Virus record (IMG/VR): IMGVR_UViG_3300023118_000017
Location: 1 to 38,232 of that record
Length of the DNA: 38,232 nucleotides
Source: a virus
Direction: 5' to 3' (one strand)
A model generated the notes under the pieces. The model did no database searches. It had not been told where the DNA came from and saw nothing but the letters and a program-made list of their open reading frames with translations. Position numbers and translations under genes: made by a program. Below, piece by piece: positions 15,622-31,912 of this stretch; the first letter of the stretch is position 1; each line of letters opens with the position of its first letter.

Positions 15622-15723
15622 TATTCGTCGTTCCCGGACGTTCAATAAATCGGGCGAAATCTTGCAACGTCCCTGCGATATGCAAGATGACTTGGCAGGT
15701 GGTGAAAGATTCGGTCCTTGGAG

Positions 15724-15880: not shown

Positions 15881-16222
15881 CTACCCGCGCCGTGGGGGCT
15901 CGGTGACGGGCGGCCTGGGGTTCGCTCTCACCCACTCTCCCCAGGTCACGTGAGCGGCTGTGGCGAGGTCGGGGAAGTATCCGATTAGGGCGCGGTCTTC
16001 GGATTGTTCGGCCCATGTGACGGAGCGGATCATCATGATGTCCCGGGGTTTGGTCTTCACCTCGCGGAGGATGGCGATCTTCCGGCCGCGGTCGAGCATG
16101 AGCCATTCGCCGGGGCGGATGCTGCGTTGCAGGGCGCGCATGGGCGTCCAGGTGTGGGCGATGTCCGGGCTCCTCTCGGTGGGGAGCAGACCGGCCTTCT
16201 GCAATGTCGATGGTACGACCAA
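15881..16222 (-). CDS. Hypothetical protein of the minus-strand accessory pair
   Basis: A 113-residue frame starting at TTG 16222. A later ATG (about residue 28, in TWTPMRALQRS) is an alternative start, since no clear RBS marks the TTG. The core, RPGEWLMLDRGRKIAILREV then RDIMMIRSVTWAEQ and LIGYFPDLATAAHVTWGEWV, reads as a compact alpha/beta protein with several Trp residues. I do not recognise a family. TTGAAC and TACCAT (15-bp spacing) upstream of the frame could be its promoter, which would overlap one of the TTGAACGT repeats. It lies divergent from the operon at 16526. Confidence 0.6.
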   Translation of the reverse strand: MVVPSTLQKAGLLPTERSPDIAHTWTPMRALQRSIRPGEWLMLDRGRKIAILREVKTKPRDIMMIRSVTWAEQSEDRALIGYFPDLATAAHVTWGEWVRANPRPPVTEPPRRG

Positions 16223-16299
16223 GCAACGACGTTCAATAAATCAGGCCCAGACTTTACACATCCCCGCAACGTTCAAGAAAACTTGCAACAACCAGTGAG

Positions 16300-16343
16300 G
16301 GTTGATCGGGGGTGGAACAAGTTTGAGGGGTTGAGTCAGAGGT
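16300..16343 (+). repeat. 44-bp repeat, copy A
   Basis: GGTTGATCGGGG, then CAAG, GGTTG and GTCAGAGGT at the same spacing as in copy B (17757-17800), without gaps. Copy B runs straight into the start codon of the DUF3263-like gene, while copy A leads into GTGGGGGAG with no gene. Confidence 0.7.
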
Positions 16344-16356
16344 GGGGGAGTGGTCG

Positions 16357-16471
16357 CCCCGTAAGCTTGGAAACAGCACCAGCAGAACCCGATGTGCCCA
16401 CCACTGTGTACACCGGCTACGGTCTAGGTGCCGCCGATGCCAGTAAATTACAGGCATCTGCCTCTGTAGCT
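16357..16471 (+). repeat. 115-bp repeat, copy A (attP-like, degenerate)
   Basis: It shares with 18573-18687, at a constant offset of 2216, the blocks CCCCGTAAGCTTGGAAACA, TGTGTACACC and a 42-bp block with one mismatch (16430-16471). The last block includes a 23-bp dyad (GATGCC, GTAA, TTAC, GGCATC) and the first 12 bases of the tRNA-like attP core. The -35 present in copy B is absent here. Confidence 0.8.
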
Positions 16472-16475
16472 GCGT

Positions 16476-16513
16476 GGTGTATGTACACCCGGTAAGCTTG
16501 GTGTATGTACACC
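16476..16513 (+). promoter_or_regulatory. Two tandem GGTGTA-TG-TACACC dyads upstream of the RHH operon
   Basis: GGTGTATGTACACC occurs at 16476-16489 and 16500-16513, 24 bp apart, with TAAGCT (a possible -10) between. The second dyad ends just before the AAGGAG of the 16526 gene. They look like operators; the operon's own RHH protein (17323-17496) is a natural candidate regulator. Confidence 0.7.
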
Positions 16514-16525
16514 AAAGGAGACATT

Positions 16526-17083
16526 GTGGCCGAAGAGTCCGATCCAACTATTCACTCGGAGTTAATAGTTGCCCTGTCCGAGCTCTCTCCTGACGAATGG
16601 GCGACTGCCGTACGTACTGAGCGTGAGAGTCAGCGGGCGAAAGGCTTCGATGAGGCGCACGATGATGAGCACGGCATTGACCATCTGCTCATGTGGGCAC
16701 AGGACTACGCCCGCCGTGGTGAGACGGTGAAGTCTGGGGCGCTGATTCAAGCAGCCCGCGACCTCCTGGTGCGATCACTCCACCCGCGCCCGTCCGAGGT
16801 GCGCCTGCACGTCAGCACGCATCCCGACATGGAGACTCGCACCACGCTCCTAAACGAGGGTTACGAGATGGCGATGGCCCATCATCTGGCCGACGATCCG
16901 ACCGTCGCGCAGGACTGGCTCGACGAGCGGGATGCCAGGCGCGAGTCCGAGATACGCCGCGAAGTACTCGAAGCCGCTGCTGCTCGGGTGATGGGTGAGG
17001 ACGTACCGAACCCAGTTGGCACAATCGCTGTCAGTTACGCGGTGGAACTCATCCTCGACGGATTGGAGGCCAACCGTGGCTGA
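16526..17083 (+). CDS. Hypothetical phage protein with HDDxH-type motif
   Basis: A 185-residue protein. The GTG at 16526 is chosen because AAGGAG stands five bases before it; an in-frame ATG at 16505 lies inside an operator-like dyad and has no RBS. The segment ERESQRAKGFDEAHDDEHG followed by GALIQAARDLL matches a recurring phage/bacterial module of unknown function in which a KGxxxxHDDxH stretch precedes an AGALI helix. The C-terminal half is helical. It is the first gene of a three-gene operon. The DNA coding SEIRRE (16943-16962) is a 20-bp exact match to 31577-31596 in a distant gene. Confidence 0.7.
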   Translation: MAEESDPTIHSELIVALSELSPDEWATAVRTERESQRAKGFDEAHDDEHGIDHLLMWAQDYARRGETVKSGALIQAARDLLVRSLHPRPSEVRLHVSTHPDMETRTTLLNEGYEMAMAHHLADDPTVAQDWLDERDARRESEIRREVLEAAAARVMGEDVPNPVGTIAVSYAVELILDGLEANRG

Positions 17084-17330
17084 CGAATACACGCCCACAA
17101 TGCAGCATTTGCGAGCCGCCTGGTTCAGGGGACGTTTCTACCCCGAACGGATGAGTGCAGAGTCGGATGCCGAAATAGATCGGTTCGTTGCCGAGATACG
17201 CCGCGACCAAGCCGAGAAAGACGCGGGGATCGCGGCACTTATCACGCACCACGGTTCGCCATGTCGCGCGGTCACAGATATCCGGCGGCAGTTCACCCCT
17301 TCACCCGAGACGGTTGACCGAGATGCCTGA
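17076..17330 (+). CDS. Small helical protein, paralogous to the 31430-31912 product
   Basis: An 84-residue protein with a GTG start, GGAGG six bases upstream, overlapping the previous gene. The centre reads EIRRDQAEKDAGIAALI and the end TPSPET. Both blocks recur in the early gene at 31430, with 36 bp (17191-17226 and 31581-31616) and 20 bp (17294-17313 and 31873-31892) identical in DNA. The product therefore looks like a shortened copy with the middle removed. Helical, charged, probably coiled coil. Function unknown. Confidence 0.65.
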   Translation: MADEYTPTMQHLRAAWFRGRFYPERMSAESDAEIDRFVAEIRRDQAEKDAGIAALITHHGSPCRAVTDIRRQFTPSPETVDRDA

Positions 17331-17496
17331 CACAATTACCCTCATGCCGGACAAGCCGAAAACCCCGCATTCGACCTTCCGCATCCCACTCGACCTCAAA
17401 GCCGCCGCCGCTGAGAAGGCTGCCGAGGAAGGCAAGACACTCACCGACGTGATCACCGAAGCGCTGGTGAAGTACACGAAGGCCAAACGCAAATAG
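17323..17496 (+). CDS. Ribbon-helix-helix DNA-binding protein
   Basis: A 57-residue protein whose ATG overlaps the previous stop. STFRIPLDLKAAAAEKAAEE forms the beta strand and first helix, and KTLTDVITEALVKYTKAKRK the second helix, a standard Arc/CopG-type fold that dimerises and binds palindromes through the strand. An internal Met (17344) is an alternative start. It closes the operon, is followed by a terminator, and may repress it through the two GGTGTATGTACACC dyads. Confidence 0.75.
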   Translation: MPDTITLMPDKPKTPHSTFRIPLDLKAAAAEKAAEEGKTLTDVITEALVKYTKAKRK

Positions 17497-17514
17497 ATCC
17501 ACCCGCACCGACCT

Positions 17515-17547
17515 AAGCTCCCCACAACAAACCGTGGGGAGCTTTCG
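17515..17547 (+). terminator. Terminator of the RHH operon
   Basis: AAGCTCCCCAC (17515-17525) pairs perfectly with GTGGGGAGCTT (17534-17544), an 11-bp stem with an 8-nt loop. The T-tract is short (TTTC), so termination depends on stem strength, as often in high-GC genomes. Confidence 0.8.
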
Positions 17548-17662
17548 TGCGTTGCGGGCTCGGTGTTCACCCTCGGCTAGTCACATGCCCCGCCGCACAC
17601 CGATAATTCACGCCTCCACATCCCCGAACGAAACCGAATTGGACGTCTCAAACGCACACAAC

Positions 17663-17741
17663 TTGCACCCTGCCGTCTGGCATCTAATTTTTCTCATACA
17701 TCAATGGTGACAGCTCGTCGAAAAGTGGTAGTAGTCACTTT
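17663..17741 (+). promoter_or_regulatory. Promoter with downstream inverted repeat, DUF3263-like gene
   Basis: TTGCAC (17663-17668), 16 bp, TAATTT (17685-17690). Downstream AAAGTG (17722-17727) and CACTTT (17736-17741) form an operator-like inverted repeat. The rest of 17548-17756 shows nothing else I can name. Confidence 0.55.
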
Positions 17742-17756
17742 CAGTCGCCCCGCAAA

Positions 17757-17800
17757 GGTTGATCGGGGTCAGATCAAGCCACACAGGTTGCGTCAGAGGT
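17757..17800 (+). repeat. 44-bp repeat, copy B (gene leader)
   Basis: Gapless partner of 16300-16343. Here it ends GTCAGAGGT directly before the ATG at 17801, so AGAGG may serve as a short-spaced RBS. Confidence 0.7.
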
Positions 17801-18061
17801 ATGCGCGACCATTGGCGAATGAGCCTCACCGACCATCAACGCGACATACTCGCCACCGAAACCAAGTGGCCGGCACCAAGCGCACGGAAATCCGAACACA
17901 TCATCCAGGTACTCCGACTCACGCGCGCACGGTACTACCAGACGCTCAACCAGATACTCGATGACCCAGCAGCACTCGAGTACGACCCTGTTGTCGTGCA
18001 CCGGCTACGGAAGTTGCGAGACGGGCGCGTGAATGGGCGAGCTCAGAGGGCGCTGAGTTAG
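17801..18061 (+). CDS. DUF3263-like small DNA-binding-type protein
   Basis: An 86-residue protein from the ATG at 17801; ATG 17819 (SLTDHQRDILATET) is an alternative. The pattern DILATE, then a helix, LRLTRARYYQTLNQILDDP and a basic end with VVVHRLRKLRDGR matches DUF3263, a helix-turn-helix-like actinobacterial family found next to cell-division and phage genes. RYYQTLN would be the recognition helix. It probably binds DNA. It ends 7 bp from the convergent lipoprotein gene. The upstream 44-bp leader is duplicated at 16300. Confidence 0.65.
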   Translation: MRDHWRMSLTDHQRDILATETKWPAPSARKSEHIIQVLRLTRARYYQTLNQILDDPAALEYDPVVVHRLRKLRDGRVNGRAQRALS

Positions 18062-18068
18062 CGTGATG

Positions 18069-18500
18069 CTACTTGGACTCGAAGCTCATCTCGAAGCCCT
18101 CGGCCGTGCACGCCTGGCCCACACGCTCGAGCTTCGACAAATACATGTCGTTCTCGGGGCTGTCGAAGACACCAAGCCCGCGAATACCAGTAGGACGGGC
18201 GTCAATAAACTCCACCAGATCGTCAATGCGGGTCTTCACGTCACCCTTGGCCTTCACGCTGATCGCTGAATAGTCCGTCGCAGCCTTATCCACCACCGAG
18301 TGCCACTGCTCGATCGTGGACGTCCCCGCCGACCTTGCGTCCCCAGCTTCCTTCAACCGCGTGAACGTGGCAGCGAAGTCACCACACGCGGCAAGGTTCA
18401 CATTCACTGGTGACGGTTTCGCCTTCGGTTCCGCTTTCGGAGCAGACGCACAACCGGTCAGGAGCAGAGCAACAACGGCAGCAACGGCTAGAAGCTTCAT
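18069..18500 (-). CDS. Lipoprotein, minus-strand moron
   Basis: A 143-residue protein starting KLLAVAAVVALLLTGC, a signal peptide with a lipobox (LLTGC) whose Cys16 would be lipidated. A Lys/Pro/Ala linker precedes a helical domain (about 34-143) with two further Cys (ACGDF and QACTAEG) that may form a disulfide. The ATG has no RBS and follows TAGGCT by seven bases. Surface lipoproteins made by prophages often block superinfection by the same phage, for example at the receptor or during DNA entry. This is the best superinfection-exclusion candidate in the window, by analogy only. Confidence 0.8.
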   Translation of the reverse strand: MKLLAVAAVVALLLTGCASAPKAEPKAKPSPVNVNLAACGDFAATFTRLKEAGDARSAGTSTIEQWHSVVDKAATDYSAISVKAKGDVKTRIDDLVEFIDARPTGIRGLGVFDSPENDMYLSKLERVGQACTAEGFEMSFESK

Positions 18501-18541
18501 GGGGGCGAGCCTAACCATCGCACCGTAGTGAGCGCGCCCCC
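18501..18541 (-). promoter_or_regulatory. Leaderless promoter of the lipoprotein gene, flanked by 7-bp arms
   Basis: On the minus strand GGGGGCG (18541-18535) and CGCCCCC (18507-18501) are inverted arms. TAGGCT (18513-18508) lies just before the right arm, which abuts the ATG. A CGGTG box stands seven bases before the -10. Confidence 0.6.
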
Positions 18542-18572
18542 AGTTCGAGTGATGAGGGGTGGGACACTCAGC

Positions 18573-18687
18573 CCCCGTAAGCTTGGAAACAAGCATCAGC
18601 CGGGGCTATGTGACAACCAGTGTGTACACCAGCCCTTGTCCCGATGCCGCCGATGCCAGTAAGTTACAGGCATCTGCCTCTGTAGCT
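18573..18687 (+). repeat. 115-bp repeat, copy B (attP arm)
   Basis: Partner of 16357-16471 at offset 2216. It contains the palindrome GTGTACAC, a 23-bp dyad (18653-18675) and the beginning of the tRNA-like core. It probably forms the left arm of attP. Confidence 0.8.
18636..18665 (+). promoter_or_regulatory. Promoter reading into the tRNA-like attP core
   Basis: TTGTCC (18636-18641), 18 bp, TAAGTT (18660-18665). The expected start is about 18672, four bases before the tRNA-like sequence. After integration it would drive the rebuilt host tRNA gene. Confidence 0.5.
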
Positions 18688-18726
18688 CAATGGAAGAGCA
18701 GTTCCGTCCTAAGGAAAGACAGAGGC
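18676..18726 (+). other. attP: attP core: 5' half of tRNA-Arg(CCU), closed as a tRNA-like hairpin
   Basis: The sequence reads as tRNA: acceptor GCCTCTG, D-arm GCTC/GAGC, anticodon stem GTTCC/GGAA with loop GTCCTAA (anticodon CCT at 18708-18710). The tRNA match ends near 18716; no variable or T arm follows. Instead CAGAGGC (18720-18726) pairs perfectly with the acceptor strand and is followed by TTTTCTT. The upstream position relative to int marks this as the attachment site; crossover probably falls in the anticodon region. Confidence 0.8.
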
Positions 18727-18805
18727 TTTTCTTGTCCCCAATTGTGGGCAATAATTGCCTGTAGATCGCTGATATTCCGGGCTTTTAGTAGGAACCGAAA
18801 CGCAC

Positions 18806-18861
18806 ACTGGCAAACATATGGTTTGCCAGTGGTTGTCACCACCTATGCCACCACCTATAGT
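18806..18861 (+). promoter_or_regulatory. Integrase promoter with palindrome and direct repeats
   Basis: TTGTCA (18833-18838), 17 bp, TATAGT (18856-18861), the best sigma-70-type promoter in the window. Directly upstream is a perfect 10-bp inverted repeat, ACTGGCAAAC and GTTTGCCAGT with a 5-nt centre (18806-18830). CACCACCTAT occurs twice, 12 bp apart, across the spacer. A second dyad, GGCAATAATTGCC, lies at 18747-18759. Confidence 0.7.
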
Positions 18862-18915: not shown

Positions 18916-19041
18916 GATCGATTACCTGAGAAAGCAGGCTCGACCCATGAATCATAAGCAGCCAGTACATAGAAGACCAATTCATATCGGCATCATCGGC
19001 GGGCAGTGGACCGCACACGACAGACAACCCAAGGAGCACCG

Positions 19042-20259
19042 ATGCCCCGCAAGCGCAGCACCGGTCAAGGTGGGCTCTACTTCGACGCCGCGCGCAAGCT
19101 GTGGATAGGTTCGTACGACAACGGCTTCACCCCTGAGGGCAAGCGGAAACAAGTCCGCGTAACCTCGAAGTCCCAATCTGTAGCGCGTGCGAAACTCGCG
19201 AAGCTCATCACCGAAGTCAATACTCACGACGCCCCACTCGGCAATCAGACGGTTGCCGAGTGGGGCGTTTTGTGGTTGGAGATGGTGAAGGCCAAGAAGC
19301 CGCAGACGTACCGCACCTATAACTCCATCTTGAAGACATGGGTTCTGCCACAGATCGGACGACGGAAAGTCAAAGACATCCGCCCGTCTGATCTGGCGAA
19401 GGTCTACGCCAACATCAAAGCCGCCGGACGCGCGTCATCTACTGCCCTCAAAGCGCACAACGTCATGTCGGCCATGTTCGAACAGGCGCGACTTGAGCGG
19501 ATCACCGACCGGAATGTGGCCGCCGACATCCGCCCACCCAAAGCGGCGAAGACCACCCGTGACAGCCTCAGCCCCGCGGAAACATTCAACGTCCTGGAAG
19601 TCGCTAAGCAAATACCGGACGGCTCCAAATGGCTGGTGTCCCTCTACGCGGGCATCCGCCAGGGGGAGCGGCTGGGCGCGACGATCGATTCCGTAGACCT
19701 CGAGCGGGGCACATTCACCGTCCGCTGGAACCTGGTCGAAGGCAACTACGAACACGGGTGCGCTGGCGACTGCGGCAAAAAGGCGGCCGGTCACTGTCCC
19801 CAGAAACGACTCGTGATCCCCGACGTAACCGACTACCGGGTACTCAAAGGGCGGCTCATGCTGGTCCCGCCGAAGTCGGGCGAAGAACGCACCTTCCCCA
19901 TCCCCGAAGGACTCCGATCCATCCTGCAAGACCAGATCGACCGGGCCAACTCACAACCGAACCCGCACGGACTGTTGTGGCCGGCAGAAGACGGCTCACC
20001 CATCCTCCCCAGATCCGATCAGGAACAGTGGAGAGCGCTACTCAGGGCGGCCGGAATCGACAGACCTGGGGCGACCACTCACTGGGCGAGACACACGGCC
20101 ATCTCCGACATGACAGCAGGTGGAACTGCAGACCGGGTGATTGGCGAAATGGTCGGACACAAGTCACCGGGTGTGACCGGCAGATACCAGCACGTTTCGT
20201 CACAGGATGCATCAGAGGCAATGGACAAGCTCGAGAAGAGACGTCAGCTCGAAAGCTGA
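19042..20259 (+). CDS. int: Tyrosine integrase
   Basis: A 405-residue protein from ATG 19042, which has AAGGAG at good spacing; an ATG at 19006 is in frame but unsupported. It has an N-terminal arm-binding AP2-like region (GLYFDAARKLWIGSYDNGF), a core-binding SAM-like domain (about 70-165) and a catalytic domain. The catalytic set is R206 (in GIRQGERLG), K278, H347 and R350 (HWARHT), H373 (GH) and the nucleophile Y382 (GRYQHV). A Cys/His insertion near C240, C244 and C252 is typical of actinobacterial integrases. It integrates the phage at tRNA-Arg(CCU). The end overlaps the convergent ImmA gene by 16 bp, and leftward immunity transcripts would be antisense to it. Confidence 0.95.
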   Translation: MPRKRSTGQGGLYFDAARKLWIGSYDNGFTPEGKRKQVRVTSKSQSVARAKLAKLITEVNTHDAPLGNQTVAEWGVLWLEMVKAKKPQTYRTYNSILKTWVLPQIGRRKVKDIRPSDLAKVYANIKAAGRASSTALKAHNVMSAMFEQARLERITDRNVAADIRPPKAAKTTRDSLSPAETFNVLEVAKQIPDGSKWLVSLYAGIRQGERLGATIDSVDLERGTFTVRWNLVEGNYEHGCAGDCGKKAAGHCPQKRLVIPDVTDYRVLKGRLMLVPPKSGEERTFPIPEGLRSILQDQIDRANSQPNPHGLLWPAEDGSPILPRSDQEQWRALLRAAGIDRPGATTHWARHTAISDMTAGGTADRVIGEMVGHKSPGVTGRYQHVSSQDASEAMDKLEKRRQLES

Positions 20260-20672
20260 CGGGCCAACGCACCAGACAGACCAGTGCGCCATGAGCGGCC
20301 ATAGGTTCGCCCACCGAGGCGCTGCAAACACTGCTCCTGGTACGCGGTCACAATGTCGACTGTCACCTGCAGCTCGTCAGCTATCGCAGCGGGGGAGGGG
20401 TCGATCGATTCAGCGGCCGCGTAATCTTCCGGCGCAATGAGCATCTGCGCAGCGTGCCGTTCGGCTCTTCTCTCGTTCGCGCTGGTGCTGCACTGGTCAC
20501 CCATGAGGCAGTGCGCAAGCTCGTGCGCCAGAACAGACCGAAGTTCGAACGGGGTGAGGCCCATGCGGAGAACGATCATCTGCCGTTCCTTGCTGTAGTA
20601 GCCGAGCAGTTCGGGGTCGTCGCTCAGGTGCGCGACGTGCACCCGAACCCCCAACTCCGCAGCCCTAATCAT
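20244..20672 (-). CDS. ImmA/IrrE-type metallopeptidase
   Basis: A 142-residue protein whose ATG overlaps the repressor stop by eight bases, with GGGAG upstream. HELAH at 50-54 is the zinc-binding HExxH motif, and NERRAERHAAQMLI supplies the usual third acidic ligand. In ICEBs1 ImmA cleaves the ImmR repressor after DNA damage, and coupled repressor/ImmA pairs in prophages are believed to act the same way. So this gene probably controls induction by cutting the product of 20665-21093. It runs convergent to int with a 16-bp overlap. Confidence 0.9.
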   Translation of the reverse strand: MIRAAELGVRVHVAHLSDDPELLGYYSKERQMIVLRMGLTPFELRSVLAHELAHCLMGDQCSTSANERRAERHAAQMLIAPEDYAAAESIDPSPAAIADELQVTVDIVTAYQEQCLQRLGGRTYGRSWRTGLSGALARQLSS

Positions 20673-21093
20673 CAACTCCCGCAATGTTCCCCCAGGTCTT
20701 CTTCGCTCGCCCCCGCTTAGCCGCCAGCCCGAAGTCATCGGGACGACCCTCCCGCTCTTCAGCATCGGAAAGTGGGGTGGGCTCATCATCCTTGGGACTA
20801 CTGACACGCTCGCCCCCGACAACAAGGAATGGCACATTTGGCCATAGCCCGCGGTTGAGAACGGCGAGTGCAGCTTCGTCCATCACCTTGTCGATCTCCA
20901 CGCCAAGGACGGTGCACATCACTTCGAGCTGGTCGATGTTGATGTGACGCATGCCACGGATCATCTTGGAAAGCTGCGACTGGTCAACGCCTACATATTT
21001 GGCCATCTCGGTTTGGCCGACGTTGTAACGACTCATGCGGCCTTTGATGATGCCGGCGATCTCCTTGGTCAAGGGGCCTGGAACTGTACTCAT
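20665..21093 (-). CDS. Immunity repressor (HTH), ImmA substrate candidate
   Basis: A 142-residue protein from ATG 21093. The N-terminal half holds an XRE-type helix-turn-helix (about 24-56, GQTEMAKYVGVDQSQLSKM), followed by a helical linker and a disordered acidic/basic tail (SSPKDDEPTPLSDAEERE, then a Lys/Arg-rich stretch) that could be the ImmA cleavage region. A CATGAT box lies seven bases before the ATG, so the mRNA may be leaderless; a start at 21105 (MIRP) is possible. It is divergent from the Cro-like gene, with two operator-like sites in the shared 77-bp gap. Confidence 0.85.
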   Translation of the reverse strand: MSTVPGPLTKEIAGIIKGRMSRYNVGQTEMAKYVGVDQSQLSKMIRGMRHINIDQLEVMCTVLGVEIDKVMDEAALAVLNRGLWPNVPFLVVGGERVSSPKDDEPTPLSDAEEREGRPDDFGLAAKRGRAKKTWGNIAGVDD

Positions 21094-21134
21094 GGGCCTA
21101 ATCATGCCATAAGCGAAATAAATCACGTCAGATG

Positions 21135-31430: not shown

Positions 31431-31912
31431 TGTCTACCCCTGACCCCGAAGAAACCGAACGGGTGCTAGCGAACTCGATCGAGCATTGGACTCCCGCGCT
31501 GGTTCGGAAGTACAACGATGCCGCCCACAAGTACATGACTGCGATGGCATCGGCCCTCGCTGCCCGTCGCCTGTCCGAGTCCGAGATACGCCGCGACCAA
31601 GCCGAGAAAGACGCGGTAATTGCGGATCTTCGACGCCGCGTCAACGCTGGCCGGAGCCTAGCCTTGCTGGGAATCTTTGCCGCTGACGCCATAGGCGAAG
31701 AAGACCTAGTGGCTGAACGTGACCGGCTTATCGCGGAGATACGTCGCGACCAGGCCGCAAAGGATGCATCCATAGCCCGGTTGTTCGTACTGGCCAAGGA
31801 CGCCGCCAGTGCAATTGCTCCTTGTGCGTGCGGCTGCGAAGTCGGCGACCTAACCCCGCAAAGCGACTACACCACCCCTTCACCCGAGACGGAACAGGAG
31901 AACATGCGATGA
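31430..31912 (+). CDS. Helical early protein, paralogue of the 17076-17330 product
   Basis: A 160-residue protein beginning STPDPEETERVLANSIEHWT. It has two internal copies of EIRRDQAxKDAxIAxL (DNA 31581-31616 and 31736-31771), separated by a hydrophobic segment (RSLALLGIFAADAIGEEDLV). Near the end is CACGCEVGDL, a Cys cluster, then PSPETEQENMR. The first repeat and the end are shared with the short accessory gene at 17076. Probably a coiled coil; possibly zinc-binding. Confidence 0.65.
   Translation: MSTPDPEETERVLANSIEHWTPALVRKYNDAAHKYMTAMASALAARRLSESEIRRDQAEKDAVIADLRRRVNAGRSLALLGIFAADAIGEEDLVAERDRLIAEIRRDQAAKDASIARLFVLAKDAASAIAPCACGCEVGDLTPQSDYTTPSPETEQENMR

Follow-up and report, generated by a model that had tools for sequence, protein, structure and literature searches.

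The sequence studied was positions 1-38,232 of IMG/VR record IMGVR_UViG_3300023118_000017, and the whole stretch of 38,232 nucleotides is referred to as the window. The source virus is a temperate phage with Microbacteriaceae as its host family. Two copies (A and B) of the P arm of its phage attachment site (attP) bracket an accessory-gene block of about 2 kb. Each copy comprises a 44-bp and a 115-bp element in the same order (A44 and A115 at 16300-16343 and 16357-16471; B44 and B115 at 17757-17800 and 18573-18687). The integrase search retrieved four related IMG/VR phages: three sisters (L005, L006, and L007) and an outgroup (L008). The features of the repeats and the attachment site were as follows.

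16228-16285, no strand: conserved noncoding element left of A44; 100% identity in L005, L006, and L007; diverged copy (72%) at 15637-15694
16300-16343, no strand: A44; 95-98% identity in the three sisters, where it lies 13 bp left of the single P arm
16357-16471, + strand: A115, P-arm copy A (putative arm-type site, inverted repeat, and the initial 12 nt of tRNA-Arg(CCT)); orthologous to the single P arm in L005, L006, and L007; not joined to the core
16405-16410, + strand: TGTGTA in copy A, a putative arm-type site for the integrase; distance to the tRNA start, 55 bp
16436-16458, no strand: inverted repeat GATGCC..GGCATC, copy A; -10-like TAAATT at 16444-16449, 10 nt before the tRNA start
17757-17800, no strand: B44; immediately upstream of the DUF3263 start codon (ATG at 17801)
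18573-18687, + strand: B115, P-arm copy B; continuous with the attP core; 84-87% identity to the arm of the sisters
18621-18626, + strand: TGTGTA in copy B, a putative arm-type site for the integrase; distance to the tRNA start, 55 bp
18652-18674, no strand: inverted repeat, copy B; -10-like TAAGTT at 18660-18665
18676-18716, + strand: attP core, made up of the tRNA-Arg(CCT) 5' half; its last part is the anticodon stem TTCC-GTCCTAA-GGAA (likely crossover)
18720-18733, + strand: start of P'; CAGAGGC pairs with GCCTCTG (18676-18682), then TTTTCTT, giving a tRNA shape without a T arm followed by a U-run
18834-18855, + strand: two tandem P' arm-type-like sites (TGTCACCACC, TGCCACCACC); overlap the best promoter match (TTGTCA-17-TATAGT) upstream of int
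19006-20259, + strand: tyrosine integrase (PF00589, phrog_1)

The duplicated arm and the attachment site

An earlier reading of the window, made from the sequence alone, had described the collinear 44-bp and 115-bp repeats at these positions, and the repeat search, BLAST, and shuffles bore it out. A115 and B115 were 82.8% identical over the whole 115 bp with compensating 1-nt gaps (BLAST), and the ungapped 80-nt core of this pair showed 85% identity at an offset of 2216 (repeat search). A44 and B44 shared 75% identity over 44 nt at an offset of 1457 (repeat search). In a self-comparison of 5 kb, as the sequence-only reading had proposed, the ungapped +1/-1 scores were 61 for the 115-bp pair and 22 for the 44-bp pair; the highest score reached was 19 when the same sequence was dinucleotide-shuffled 40 times, and 18 elsewhere in the window. 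As both scores exceed the shuffle maximum, the 115-bp duplication is certain and the 44-bp duplication is probably real. The longest exact run shared by A and B was 24 bp.

The offset of 2216, which had been described as constant, holds generally, but not between the two compensating gaps (16374 and 16391). The 42-bp block with a single mismatch was placed exactly at 16430-16471, with the mismatch at 16447 (A/G), the middle position of a 23-bp palindrome (GATGCC-A-GTAA-N-TTAC-A-GGCATC) found elsewhere only in the three sister-phage contigs. This block enters the tRNA-like core by 12 bp, as had been proposed, and those 12 bp (GCCTCTGTAGCT, 16460-16471) lie inside A. It was also correct that only 13 bp separate the two A elements and that B belongs to attP, as B115 forms its left part, adjoining the integrase and the tRNA-like core.

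In many Microbacteriaceae, the 41-bp core GCCTCTGTAGCTCAATGGAAGAGCAGTTCCGTCCTAAGGAA is found as the 5' half of the tRNA-Arg(CCT) gene, not as the usual 3' half. It matched this tRNA in at least 119 genome stretches, few of them labelled other than Microbacteriaceae, and anticodon-stem variants (GTTCC, ATTCC, and AGTCC) occurred, such that different phages fit different host versions. As attP carries the 5' half, integration puts the phage arm ahead of the rebuilt tRNA. Copy A has the arm-type site, the inverted repeat, the -10-like hexamer, and 12 bp of the tRNA, and ends after these 12 bp; it cannot be attP because the crossover (anticodon) region is missing. The start of int is located approximately 0.3 kb from the core.

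TGTGTA was found 54-55 bp before the tRNA start in seven of seven arms (window A and B, L005 to L008, and the Microbacteriaceae genome G092 described below), and P' has two tandem related sites at a spacing of 12-13 bp; together, these have the pattern of integrase arm-type sites, which they putatively represent. The inverted repeat covaries, as both sides change together (GATGCC/GGCATC, CATCCC/GGGATG, and GATGCCC/GGGCATC). In host tRNA-Arg(CCT) genes, TAnnnT was located 9-12 nt before the tRNA in 110 of 115 genes, and exactly 10 nt before it in 84 of 115; the TAAATT of A and the TAAGTT of B occupy the same 10-nt position as the host -10.

In phage DNA that is not integrated, the core and the adjoining start of P' form a tRNA-like fold (Rfam tRNA score of 30.0 bits versus a gathering threshold of 29), which, with its U-run, may terminate transcription from the orphaned host promoter at the left junction (attL) of an integrated phage. 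The fold with the U-run was also present in L008 and not clearly in G092, and we therefore do not claim it as general. The best sigma-70-like promoter near int (18833-18861) overlaps both P' arm-type-like sites, and for this reason, the integrase may repress its own gene. The palindrome GGCAAACATATGGTTTGCC in P' (approximately 18810-18829), whose central GCAAACATATGGTTTGC is kept in the sisters and G092 and diverged in L008, is a candidate excisionase or regulator site. An open reading frame resembling an IrrE-like metalloprotease (HELAH motif; 20244-20837, minus strand) adjoins the integrase, and a helix-turn-helix repressor is encoded beside it at 20665-21126.

Two further repeats were noted around the arms. 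The 10-mer GTAAGCTTGG (16361, 16492, and 18577) starts both 115-bp arms and occurs again between two operators after A; this third copy (16492) is possibly a relic of a further arm copy, or chance. The 58-bp noncoding element left of A44 and its diverged copy form a direct repeat that brackets a minus-strand gene (15881-16222), and the sequence neighbouring the right copy was 93-97% identical in the three sisters.

Single-arm sisters and an integrated relative

L005, L006, and L007 have one arm each, arranged exactly as A44, 13 bp, A115, core, and int. Their left flank (93-97% identical to the window near the arm) and A44 lead into the single arm, the core, and the integrase uninterrupted; on the core/integrase side, which follows B in the window, the identity was 98% for L005, 93% for L007, and 91% for L006. 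As the sisters run from the A-type flank straight into the core, the window has an extra 2216 bp between the original arm and the core. At the 20 sites that distinguish A from B, L006 carried the A state at 18, the outgroup L008 carried the A state at 12 and the B state at 2, and L005 and L007 were mosaic (10 A, 9 B, and 1 neither, the B-like sites forming a central block). Copy B is the odd, diverged copy, as L006 and L008 mostly carry A states. Judging from the arm sequences, B did not arise from A by tandem duplication in the recent past, nor is A a degenerate form of B.

The Microbacteriaceae genome G092 holds an integrated relative whose integrase is 65% identical to that of the window. 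Its attL (contig C37) consists of a host-type upstream region (TGTAAACTCGTGCGGTCA) and a 40-nt tRNA 5' fragment, followed by P' and the integrase; its right junction (attR, contig C19) consists of the phage P arm, then the complete, rebuilt tRNA-Arg(CCT), and then host DNA. An empty site was present in the same-genus genome G010, and its two sides matched the two junction flanks of G092. These two junctions were the only core matches in G092, and thus, the one complete tRNA-Arg(CCT) found in this genome lies behind phage DNA.

The window phage itself was not found as a lysogen. The integrase search for more lysogens among 400 family, 12 genus, and 396 order genomes yielded G092 alone as a close match, and the scan of 400 genomes for P-arm/tRNA junctions also returned only G092, its other two matches being ordinary host sites. 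G152 (integrase identity of 47%) was rejected as a lysogen: the 19 kb surrounding its integrase contained no tRNA core, and the promoter of its own tRNA is of the host type.

The cargo and the origin of the second arm

The copies had been described as flanking a cassette with a ribbon-helix-helix (RHH) operon, a DUF3263 gene, and a lipoprotein gene, and this gene content was confirmed.

16476-16489, no strand: operator 1, GGTGTATGTACACC (motif scan)
16500-16513, no strand: operator 2, GGTGTATGTACACC, then AAAGGAG
16526-17083, + strand: first cargo gene; GTG at 16526 as the likely start, frame open from 16505; 186-192 aa
17076-17330, + strand: second cargo gene, 84 aa; 36-bp exact DNA repeat in common with a gene at 31.5 kb
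17344-17496, + strand: Arc-like RHH gene, 50 aa; phrog_6506, E=3e-11; last gene of the operon
17801-18061, + strand: DUF3263 gene; PF11662, E=3.5e-21
18069-18500, - strand: putative lipoprotein gene (MKLLAVAAVVALLLTGCASA...); weak match

Two perfect palindromes (the predicted operators) lie directly after A, 24 bp apart from start to start, and the operon is next. Part of the first cargo gene matched uncharacterised Microbacterium phage proteins, one of them annotated as MazG-like. The RHH domain was assigned from phrog_6506, its Pfam score being under the cut-off. A 45-bp repeat (36 bp exact; 17191-17235 and 31581-31625) lies in two protein genes and encodes the motif EIRRDQAEKDA; from this, the product of the 31.5-kb gene appears to have a shortened relative in the 84-aa cargo protein, and the repeat would hint at recent exchange within the genome.

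RHH homologues (55-59%) were also present next to the attachment sites of L008 (attP) and G092 (attR), in each case on the side of the cargo. In L008, the operon ending in the RHH gene is preceded by the same dual operator with one imperfect copy, and in G092, a related palindrome (GGTGTTACAACACC) lies ahead of the RHH gene. The scan for dual operators across the collection returned nine contigs, two of which have an RHH homologue (the contig of L008 itself and L161). No RHH homologue was present in the remaining seven, which appear to be simple repeats or unrelated sequences. In L161 (1353-1403), dual GGTGTACATACACC operators have an Arc-like RHH gene on one side and a lipoprotein gene on the other, and this record has no matching integrase, which suggests independent support for an RHH-operator-moron module. 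The co-occurrence in the window, L008, and L161 suggests that the Arc-like RHH protein may bind the operators. Several mycobacteriophages also have DUF3263 relatives beside the integrase. Apart from being bounded by an arm at each end, the cassette looks like ordinary lysogeny cargo at its customary location.

We consider it probable that, taken as a whole, a 2.2-kb cargo with its own diverged P arm (B) was inserted between the original arm (A), which is the ordinary P arm of the sisters, and the core with the 5' half of the tRNA. The 115-bp element would be the P arm of an attP carrying the 5' half of the host tRNA-Arg(CCT). Integration would leave the host promoter with a useless tRNA 5' fragment at attL, while at attR the phage P arm would become the upstream region of the only complete tRNA gene. 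The cassette with its own arm would have been joined between arm and core, presumably by recombination at or near the conserved 42-bp block, where both junctions would lie. Copy B would be the working arm in integration, as only B connects to the anticodon-loop crossover. Copy A would persist as the upstream leader or promoter of the cargo operon, its most likely role, and as a spare integrase arm-type site.

Several observations weigh against this account. L008 has an imperfect form of the -10-like hexamer (TAGATA) and G092 lacks it (GGAATG in its place), and a sigma-70 scan found no promoter in A or B. As the hexamers of L008 and G092 do not fit, we only infer that the P arm functions as a promoter. 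The integrated relative is a single case, and the left junction (16471/16472) is without clear homology. A phage having only the B arm and the cargo was not found, and the donor thus stays hypothetical; the first cargo protein and the lipoprotein had no relatives in IMG/VR from which a B-arm donor could be found, and the annotated phage collection contained no nucleotide relatives of the window.

The sequence-only reading had instead taken A as a collapsed or older attachment module, with homologous recombination between A and B deleting or multiplying a 2.2-kb cassette. We regard this as unlikely. The sisters do show exactly the layout that such recombination would leave, and deletion is conceivable because the deleted arrangement occurs in them; the predicted 2216-bp deletion form exists as a deletion-like allele (A44, 13 bp, A115, core, and int) in three relatives, although at least the L006 version does not resemble a deletion product. 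A44 could also be a relic of a DUF3263-type leader such as B44, making A a gene-depleted B, and the otherwise A-like arm of L005 and L007 has a block of B-like sites. However, the proposed comparison of relatives, while yielding one-copy genomes, went against a collapsed module: A is the orthologue of the sole P arm of the sisters with the same left flank, the arm of L006 stays A-like as far as the core and does not change to B, and in the outgroup the A states far exceed the B states. Furthermore, 83% identity with no exact run above 24 bp is poor for homologous recombination, and the crossover site is missing from A.

An assembly chimera of two co-occurring phages is very unlikely. The left part of the window is nearest L006 and its right part is nearest L005, and the arms are common to these phages; yet normal k-mers would not confuse A with B, as they share no exact word above 24 bp, and both novel junctions (A to operon, and lipoprotein to B) require real reads, the 2.1 kb between them having no DNA-level match to relatives. 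Integrase-driven arrival, in which a 2.2-kb circle with a P arm recombined site-specifically into the attP of the phage, is also very unlikely. The layout, with directly oriented P arms on either side of the cassette, is what Campbell-type insertion leaves, but the repeat stops 12 nt into the tRNA, approximately 20 nt before the anticodon loop where crossover is expected, and the circle would therefore miss the overlap region.

An extension of the favoured insertion account, which we advance as a doubtful suggestion from sequence features, is that the P arm may be a portable tRNA promoter that keeps the sole tRNA-Arg(CCT) of the host expressed in lysogens, with the second copy reused as the promoter of the RHH-controlled cargo operon. 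If true, it would represent the capture of an attachment-site promoter for a moron.

Comparison with known systems

Tyrosine integrases at tRNA genes are common. The window attP resembles the tRNA-targeting attP of lambda-like tyrosine-integrase systems in mycobacteriophages (PMC10865867) in its tyrosine integrase, tRNA identity of approximately 40 bp, probable crossover in the anticodon loop, putative arm-type sites on both sides, and tRNA rebuilt at one junction. It differs in having the 5' half, such that the phage gives the upstream region, and in having the P arm twice. As in tRNA-dependent lysogeny (PMC10865867), the phage must keep host tRNA function on integration; here, however, no complete tRNA gene was found within the window, and the tRNA is rebuilt at attR (in the G092 relative), which is a different solution.

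In the Islander report (PMC4383910), 159 of 3919 islands carry a 5' tDNA fragment, forming a recognised minority class. The window agrees with this class in that the tRNA 5' half travels with the element and the fragment left displaced is a 5' one; it differs in its P-arm duplication and captured cargo operon, neither of which is described for such islands in the text consulted. Our literature search, with incomplete coverage, returned no report of a duplicated P arm flanking cargo and none linking attP with a "promoter for the tRNA".

With the 5' half on the phage in this group, a lysogen relies on phage DNA for the region upstream of its tRNA, and the P arm is a recombination site and possibly also a promoter. 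The arrangement suggests how attachment-site sequence gets copied and reused beside cargo genes. The cargo resembles Arc-like RHH repressors (phrog_6506) with moron genes, having a small RHH gene, paired palindromic operators, and a lipoprotein gene nearby; GGTGTATGTACACC is accordingly a predicted operator for Arc-like phage regulators beside lipoprotein or other accessory genes. It differs from such systems in that the operon lies directly behind a duplicated P arm. The component types and the 5'-half class are known, and the doubled-arm layout and the tRNA-promoter idea merit testing.

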